Assembly: GCA_027019465.1 (NCBI GenBank)
Contig: JALUWM010000092.1
Coordinates: forward strand, 1-47,100
Direction of reading: 5' to 3'
Source of the DNA: Campylobacterales bacterium
GTDB taxonomy: Bacteria > Campylobacterota > Campylobacteria > Campylobacterales > Nautiliaceae
DNA: 47,100 nt
Shown here: piece after piece, positions 29,776 through 32,011 of the stretch
How the letters are laid out: each line of letters begins with the position of its first letter
Position numbering within the stretch: the stretch's first letter is position 1
Translations under genes and position numbers: made by a program
Notes under the pieces: generated by a model
The model's input: the letters and a program-made list of their open reading frames with translations, nothing else
What the model was told of the DNA's origin: nothing
Databases searched by the model: none

Positions 29776-29788
29776 ATTCATCCTTTGA

Positions 29789-29811: not shown

Positions 29812-29997
29812 ATGAAAATATTATTCTTAATAATAGCACTTTTTTTTGCAGGTTGTGTAGATAAAACAGGAATTTCTCTTGATTTATATCCTAATTGTGA
29901 AGAAAATTACGATTTATATGGAGTTTATTATCAAAAATGTAAAAACAATATATATAATTTCAAAAAAAAGAGAAAAATCTGTCTTGATTGTAATTAA
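29812..29997 (+). CDS. Small lipoprotein with C-terminal CxxC
   Basis: A 61-residue protein with a clean lipoprotein signal MKILFLIIALFFAGC (Cys15) and six cysteines in total. Two stand in CLDCN at the very end, with others in PNCEE, QKCKN and RKIC. AAAAAGG precedes the ATG by six bases. The family is not recognised. The cysteine number suggests disulfides or metal binding outside the membrane. It sits in front of a repeat hairpin and cmoB. Confidence 0.75.
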   Translation: MKILFLIIALFFAGCVDKTGISLDLYPNCEENYDLYGVYYQKCKNNIYNFKKKRKICLDCN

Positions 29998-30099: not shown

Positions 30100-30987
30100 T
30101 TGAATATTAAAGAGATTTTAAAAGAACGACAAAAATGGTTTGAATGGAAAAATATAGAACCGATATACGAAAAAATTAAACAATGGAAAATGGAAAATAG
30201 AAAATTAAAATACGAATATAAGATAGGAGATATTATAGAAATTAATGGAGAGGAAAATCCTAAAATTTTAGAATTAGCAAAAATGCTTAAACCTTGGAGA
30301 AAAGGACCTTTTAAAATAAATAACATTTTTATTAACAGCGAATGGAAAAGTTATATAAAATGGAATACTATAAAAAAATTTTTGGATTTAGAAAATAAAG
30401 ATATTTTGGATATTGGATGTAATAACGGATATCATATGTTTAGAATGTTAAAATCTAATCCAAAAAGCATAACCGGCTTTGACCCAAGTGCTTTATTTAA
30501 TCTTCAATTTGAATTTATAAATTCATTTATTAAAAGTAATATTGAATATAAACTTCTTGGGGTCGAACATATCCCATATTATGAAAAAAAATTTGATACT
30601 ATTTTTTGTATGGGAGTTTTATATCATAGAAAAGACCCTATTGAAATGCTAAAAGAAGTAAAAGCCGGACTTAAAAAAGGAGGAGAAATAATTTTAGATA
30701 CTTTAATTATTGAAGGGAATGAAGAAGTTGCACTAAGCCCAATCAGATATGCAAAAATGAAAAATATCTATTTTATTCCAACACTTAAAACTTTATATAA
30801 CTGGATTGAAAAAACAAATTTTAAGAGCATTGAATTTATAGGCAAACGATATACAACTATAAACGAGCAACGCAAAACTGAGTGGATAGAAGGTGAAAGT
30901 TTAGAACATTTTTTAAATAAAAATCAAACAAAAACAATAGAAGGGTACGAACCACCTCTACGTCTTTATCTAAAAATAAAAAATTAA
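30100..30987 (+). CDS. cmoB: tRNA U34 carboxymethyltransferase CmoB
   Basis: A 295-residue SAM-type enzyme that turns 5-hydroxyuridine at tRNA position 34 into the 5-oxyacetate form, using carboxy-SAM. LDIGCNNGYHMFRM lies near residues 102-115, GFDPS follows, then CMGVLYHRKDPIEML. RPLRW-like residues are seen as KPWRKGPF near 68. It starts with TTG behind AAAAAAGGA. Residues 28-37 are coded by four AATNGAA heptamers. CmoA, its partner, is not in the window. Confidence 0.92.
   Translation: MNIKEILKERQKWFEWKNIEPIYEKIKQWKMENRKLKYEYKIGDIIEINGEENPKILELAKMLKPWRKGPFKINNIFINSEWKSYIKWNTIKKFLDLENKDILDIGCNNGYHMFRMLKSNPKSITGFDPSALFNLQFEFINSFIKSNIEYKLLGVEHIPYYEKKFDTIFCMGVLYHRKDPIEMLKEVKAGLKKGGEIILDTLIIEGNEEVALSPIRYAKMKNIYFIPTLKTLYNWIEKTNFKSIEFIGKRYTTINEQRKTEWIEGESLEHFLNKNQTKTIEGYEPPLRLYLKIKN
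30182..30209 (+). repeat. In-frame AATNGAA heptamers inside cmoB
   Basis: Four consecutive heptamers AATGGAA, AATGGAA, AATAGAA, AATTAAA lie in the cmoB frame and encode the WKMENRKLK stretch. The same unit recurs across the pyrB/pabB junction. Confidence 0.65.
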
Positions 30988-31083
30988 TTATTCAGGTTTA
31001 GCACCTATCATAAATAAATAAACTAATGTTATGAAGATAACAGTGATACCAAATCCAACACCAACAATCATTCCGAAATCCAT
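30988..31083 (-). CDS. 31-residue single-span membrane protein (unlisted small ORF)
   Basis: The minus strand carries an ORF of 31 residues starting MDFGMIVGVGFGITVIF and ending MIGAKPE. It has a near perfect ribosome site AAAGGAGAAAAA and a TATAAT 32 bases upstream of the ATG. The middle 20 residues are hydrophobic with a GxGFG stretch at the front, so a single helix in the membrane is expected. It resembles small accessory subunits of respiratory or transport complexes, but I do not recognise the family. It converges with cmoB (stop codons touch) and diverges from pyrB. Confidence 0.8.
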   Translation of the reverse strand: MDFGMIVGVGFGITVIFITLVYLFMIGAKPE

Positions 31084-31114
31084 TTTTTCTCCTTTTTTTT
31101 AAAGATATAGTAAA

Positions 31115-31120
31115 ATTATA
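31115..31120 (-). promoter_or_regulatory. -10 box for the 31-residue membrane protein
   Basis: TATAAT on the minus strand, 31 bases upstream of the small ORF ATG, inside the divergent gap with pyrB. Confidence 0.5.
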
Positions 31121-31135
31121 CAAAAAAGGATTTAA

Positions 31136-32011
31136 ATGTCAAAACATTTAACTCATACAAAAGATTTAAATAAAGAAGAAATATTAAAAATTTTTAAATA
31201 TGCAACAAAATATCTTGATGAAAAAAAAAGAAATGAGCTTCAAGGTAAACTGATAATTAATATCTTTTTTGAAAATTCAACTCGTACCAGAAGCTCTTTT
31301 GAAATAGCTGCCAAAAGATTAGGCGCTGATATTGTTAATTTAGATGTTTCAAGAAGCTCAACTGCTAAAGGTGAAACCCTTTTTGATACGGCTGCAAATC
31401 TTGATGCAATGGGACCAAGTGCTATTGTTGTACGTCATAAACTATCAGGTGTGCCTAAGATTCTTTCAAAATATGTAAAAAGCTCTATTATAAACGCAGG
31501 AGATGGAGCTCATCAACATCCAACCCAGGGGCTTTTAGATCTGTTTACCCTTCTTCAAAAATGGGGAAGTTTAGAAGGGAAAAAAATAGCAATCGTAGGA
31601 GACATTAAAAATTCAAGAGTTGCAAATTCAGATATTGAACTTTTTACAAGATTTGGTGCAAAAGTTTTACTTGTGGCACCTCCTCATTTCTTGCCAAAAA
31701 CCAATCTTCCAACAACATATAATTTAAAAGAAGCAATAGATTTTGCAGATGCTGTAATTAGTCTTAGAACACAAACAGAAAGACACTCACAGGTAAGTTT
31801 TTCTTCTCTTAAAGATTACGCAGCTAATTTCCAAATAACAAAAAATTTAATTAAAGATAAAGATATTTTAATAATGCATCCAGGACCTGTACATAGAAAT
31901 ATAGATTTAAGCGATGAAGTAATGGAAGATGAAAGATGTCTTGTTTTAGAGCAGGTTAAAAACGGAGTTGCTGTGAGAATGGGAATACTTAAATATTTAA
32001 TTGAAAATTGA
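31136..32011 (+). CDS. pyrB: Aspartate carbamoyltransferase PyrB
   Basis: A 291-residue catalytic chain that makes carbamoyl aspartate, the first committed step of pyrimidine synthesis. [13 protein letters not shown] is at 44-56 and binds carbamoyl phosphate; [10 protein letters not shown] and [12 protein letters not shown] are also present. No regulatory subunit gene (pyrI) is seen. Its final codons (LIEN, stop) are made of AATTGAA heptamers that continue into pabB. Confidence 0.97.

Follow-up and report, generated by a model that had tools for sequence, protein, structure and literature searches.

A conserved small gene divergent from pyrB in Nautiliaceae encodes a predicted single-helix membrane protein

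Our analysis strongly supports a small ORF divergent from pyrB as a genuine, selected gene for a membrane protein with one predicted helix. The ORF lies in a 47,100-nucleotide stretch of Nautiliaceae DNA (the window; Table 1) and encodes a 31-residue peptide, here called the 31-mer. As far as found, only Nautiliaceae and one sister family have this small-protein family. None of the family libraries searched contains it, yet it is of a known kind, the single-helix small membrane proteins. We infer the expression, inner-membrane insertion, topology and partner binding of the 31-mer, and regard it as probably a lineage-specific single-pass inner-membrane protein that acts on a larger membrane protein, either as a small accessory subunit or as its regulator.

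Table 1. Features of the small gene and its surroundings (window positions)
Feature	Position	Strand	Remarks
Small ORF	31083..30988	-	31 codons and TAA; encodes MDFGMIVGVGFGITVIFITLVYLFMIGAKPE; homologues, purifying selection
Shine-Dalgarno AAGGAG	31094..31089	-	ends five bases before ATG
-10 hexamer TATAAT of small gene	31120..31115	-	consensus scan
-35 hexamer TTGACA	31142..31137	-	overlaps first codons (start codon) of pyrB
15-bp quasi-palindrome TATAGTAAAATTATA	31106..31120		TATAAT on - strand, TATAGT on + strand; conserved in relatives
pyrB (aspartate carbamoyltransferase), divergent neighbour	31136..32011	+	Pfam OTCace_N/OTCace
cmoB-type methyltransferase, convergent neighbour	30100..30987	+	PF08003; stop codon abuts small ORF's stop

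The position, strand, length and sequence given for the ORF in a preliminary description agreed exactly with our re-reading of the DNA. The single hydrophobic helix proposed there was also recovered: the maximum 19-residue Kyte-Doolittle mean is 2.47, and the AlphaFold model of the 31-mer consists of one helix at residues 3–26 with a mean pLDDT of 93.6. The net charge of the window copy is negative. In sequence generated by a first-order Markov model of the same composition, ORFs of 25–45 codons with AGGAG, ATG and a mean of 2.0 or more would occur 0.05 times per 47.1 kb; the small ORF is the only one of this type in the 47.1 kb. The remark that it is too short for standard gene callers was only roughly right, since the ORF measures 96 nt and the minimum gene length of Prodigal is 90 nt.

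The promoter of the small gene is of the sigma-70 type and better than first claimed: besides the TATAAT already described, it has a perfect TTGACA at a 16-base spacing (TTGACA-16-TATAAT, 12 of 12 consensus matches), the sole such site that a consensus scan found within 30700-31400. The distance from the -10 hexamer to the ATG is 31 bases in the window copy, and the strong ribosome site previously noted is present. The ribosome site of pyrB sits inside the spacer of this promoter. Judging from its two strands, the quasi-palindrome probably supplies both the small gene and pyrB with -10 elements, which overlap and point in opposite directions, and we infer a role for it in the pyrB promoter.

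TATAAT is kept in all 18 pyrB-linked Nautiliaceae copies and TTGACA in 17, with a spacer of 16 in 16 of those 17 and of 18 in the other; the -10 to ATG distance among these copies is 30–33 bases, and AGGAG or AAGGAG precedes the start in all relatives compared. Because the promoter overlaps the start and Shine-Dalgarno sequence of pyrB, part of its conservation is shared with pyrB, which favors reading the small ORF as an untranslated by-product of a conserved pyrB promoter. Such a by-product is extremely unlikely in view of the synonymous bias described below, the frame and length kept in 19 of 19 genomes, the retained ribosome site, and the coding sequence preserved in one genome (G010) although it has moved from pyrB.

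The small ORF is under purifying selection, and its substitutions are mainly synonymous. In comparisons of 19 coding sequences, pN was lower than pS in 169 of 171 pairs (mean pN 0.33, mean pS 0.62); these counts are descriptive and carry no p-value, because the pairs are not independent. Entropy in the same sequences was highest at third codon positions. At the protein level, Met1, Phe11 and Phe17 are invariant among 21 aligned sequences and Gly4, Leu20 and Tyr22 nearly invariant, while most flanking positions vary. The periodicity of conservation at 100 degrees was weak (p 0.03 at 100 degrees, 0.11 over 90-110) and fits, as expected, a helix with one packing face.

The preliminary description had named a search for the peptide in relatives as one check, and a lack of conservation among the results that would speak against the gene. 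The search instead upheld the gene: of 21 Nautiliaceae genomes covered (G000 plus 20 others of the family), 19 carry homologues of 29–32 residues. The absence from the other two, G004 and G019, is uninformative, since pyrB is missing from both assemblies. The gene is divergent from pyrB in 18 genomes, with cmoB downstream and convergent at every pyrB-linked locus whose downstream side was read. The named records carrying the locus in a DNA pattern scan were Nautiliaceae metagenome-assembled genomes, one of them labelled only Campylobacterales.

In G010, the small gene lies on another contig, away from pyrB and cmoB, with its own Shine-Dalgarno sequence and flanked by genes for a PLP-type enzyme and a membrane protein; the pyrB gene of this genome, located elsewhere, has no such small ORF upstream. 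The relocated copy retains the protein together with its own ribosome site, indicating that the protein, not merely the DNA, is kept and that the product probably acts in trans. The G010 pyrB appears to begin GTG GGT, the TTGACA being gone where the small gene has moved away.

Outside Nautiliaceae, the closest family seen (f13) has a PyrB about 72% identical to that of Nautiliaceae. Each of its two genomes has, in the corresponding position, an ORF of 31-32 residues that is preceded by a ribosome site and diverged in sequence (MENGTMLVAAFGLLAWFAIEVIYFLNKASKED; MMENGIMEIAAFGILGWFFLQVVYFQKMATE), and the first of these matched the Nautiliaceae profile with an E value of 4e-6. About 390 further Campylobacterota genomes, the remainder of 397 sampled at the level of the class and once more at that of the phylum, yielded no credible relative. 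Taking a score over the curated cut-off (Pfam, NCBIfam) or a significant E-value (PHROGs) as a family match, we found none in these libraries, and a PDB search with the 31-mer found no relative. CcmD (0.12), TatA (0.31), MWFE (0.21) and adenovirus E3 region (0.0012) fell below the Pfam/NCBIfam cut-offs, with only one or a few members matching in each case.

Both neighbours of the small gene are soluble housekeeping enzymes. By its layout, the gene appears to be monocistronic, forming its own transcription unit; a sequence scan at the locus found no terminator for it. It is unlikely to be the leader of a same-strand gene, since the next gene on its strand, for an M20 peptidase (ATG at 29781), starts 1.2 kb on, beyond cmoB. 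A further ORF, of 61 residues, lies on the plus strand at 29812-29997, with a lipoprotein-type signal (MKILFLIIALFFAGC), conserved cysteines and the end ...CLDCN. This ORF, conserved both in Nautiliaceae and in the sister genome G032, has no Pfam match and represents another small-protein family that had gone unrecognised.

The length and hydrophobicity of the 31-mer are in the right range for toxins of type I such as AapA, TisB or Fst, short hydrophobic peptides that damage the membrane and are kept in check by antisense RNA. Unlike AapA and TisB, however, the small gene is a syntenic single copy with a short leader: it keeps one conserved place across the whole family, and its 31 bases between the -10 hexamer and the ATG are not a long structured leader. 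The consensus scan found no plus-strand promoter-like site in 30700-31400, there was no Rfam match, and the net negative charge of the window copy also counts against a toxin. Conserved synteny, a short leader and the absence of antisense signals from these searches thus make a toxin quite unlikely.

Several known small subunits resemble the 31-mer. KdpF, the 29-residue subunit of KdpFABC, shares its length and single helix, and presumably also an LVY-like stretch before a polar C-terminus. This identity was rejected, because KdpA was found in none of 33 genomes, including all 21 Nautiliaceae, while control genomes were positive, and because there was no Pfam or NCBIfam match. CcoQ of the cbb3 oxidase is likewise small and single-helix, but it is a subunit of an oxidase whose CcoN Nautiliaceae lack: a COX1/CcoN gene was found in 0 of 19 Nautiliaceae genomes and not in G032, in contrast to 10 of 12 genomes of other families. 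CcoQ was therefore rejected as well. The profile also gave weak, recurrent matches to proteins of about 490 residues from other families; these lay inside CcoN at one helix (NAVAFVFTSAVIALVYYFMPKEAG) and were dismissed as chance similarity, being short and internal, with E values mostly 0.001-0.1 and 1e-4 at best. One CcoN transmembrane helix (VAFVFTSAVIALVYYFMPK; L028, L029 and other CcoN genes) recurrently resembles the helix of the 31-mer, probably by chance; Nautiliaceae have no CcoN.

CydA is present in nearly all Nautiliaceae searched and in G032, and COX1 is absent; cytochrome bd is thus the sole recognised terminal oxidase of these two types there. This, together with the small subunits of the E. 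coli and C. jejuni bd oxidases (PMC11955535, PMC4325964), favors an extra bd subunit with a CydX/CydY-like role, encoded away from cydAB. CioY/CydY, the 34-residue CioAB component of Campylobacter jejuni (PMC11955535, PMC4325964), resembles the 31-mer: both are single-helix membrane proteins of Campylobacterota, roughly 30 residues long and of the kind missed in routine annotation. In contrast, the CydX/CydY/CydZ genes lie downstream of cydB in the cydAB operon, that for CydY immediately so, and a Trp at the helix start is conserved in their products, joined in CydY/CioY by a Pro and a Tyr. The small gene lies at pyrB, and the 31-mer is without that W and P: neither a Trp nor a helix Pro is conserved in the 21-sequence alignment, and the profile of the 31-mer did not match the CydY-like protein. 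The cydAB operons lie elsewhere and have small genes of their own: one immediately follows cydB and is CydY-like (TTWG..LFFMWPI....Y, including the W, P and Y that are reportedly conserved in CioY), and another, for a small membrane protein, precedes cydA. CydX/CydY/CydZ identity was consequently rejected, and an extra bd subunit is very improbable.

In the Nautiliaceae cydAB operons (L056, L057, L058, L059, L060, L061), the membrane gene before cydA encodes 74-78 residues (MFKRILFFYIDGFKN...), and the CydY-like gene after cydB encodes 70-71 residues with an N-terminal signal, longer than the 34-residue CioY; the sister genome G032 (L091) also has a 70-residue CydY-like gene. This layout matches that described for epsilonproteobacteria (PMC4325964).

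The preliminary description suggested a small subunit of a membrane complex. The selected, single-helix gene is real; the subunit role is plausible and unproven, since no partner is co-encoded and CydX/CydY, CcoQ and KdpF do not fit. Indeed, no co-encoded partner was found in any genome examined. The window also contains a potassium-channel/DUF6394 pair near by; it was considered as a partner and dropped, as it adjoins the small gene in neither G008 nor G014. The lack of a co-encoded partner, of a match to a known small-subunit family and of a strong helical-face signal counts against a subunit. The first of these points would also suit a protein that acts without a fixed larger partner, as a homo-oligomer, a modulator of membrane stress or membrane properties, or an adaptor of a membrane protease, and helices of 31 residues bearing Phe and Gly/Ala/Ser positions are able to self-associate. 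We consider this rather unlikely: near-universal retention and two invariant Phe residues suggest specific contacts, although self-contacts are also compatible.

Small membrane proteins of this sort most commonly serve a larger membrane protein as accessory subunit or regulator, and we favor this role for the 31-mer. The helix would insert in the inner membrane, with the Lys-bearing C-terminus perhaps inside. Its conserved positions, Phe11, Phe17, Leu20 and Tyr22 with a small or Thr residue at 12-14, would pack against a larger membrane protein encoded elsewhere in the genome. The 31-mer may stabilise or tune this protein, as CydX/CioY, examples of small accessory proteins, does CydA (PMC11955535). 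Tentatively, an energy-conserving or transport complex found only in Nautiliaceae and the sister family might have the new family as a dedicated subunit, made from its own strong promoter back-to-back with that of the pyrimidine-synthesis gene pyrB.

With this gene, the poorly charted set of single-helix proteins shorter than 50 residues gains a well-supported, lineage-specific family. The host is a deep-sea vent bacterium; our literature searches turned up no work on small proteins in Nautilia and no such small proteins studied in autotrophic vent bacteria. Because the small gene is retained throughout the family, these bacteria probably require it for a core membrane function.
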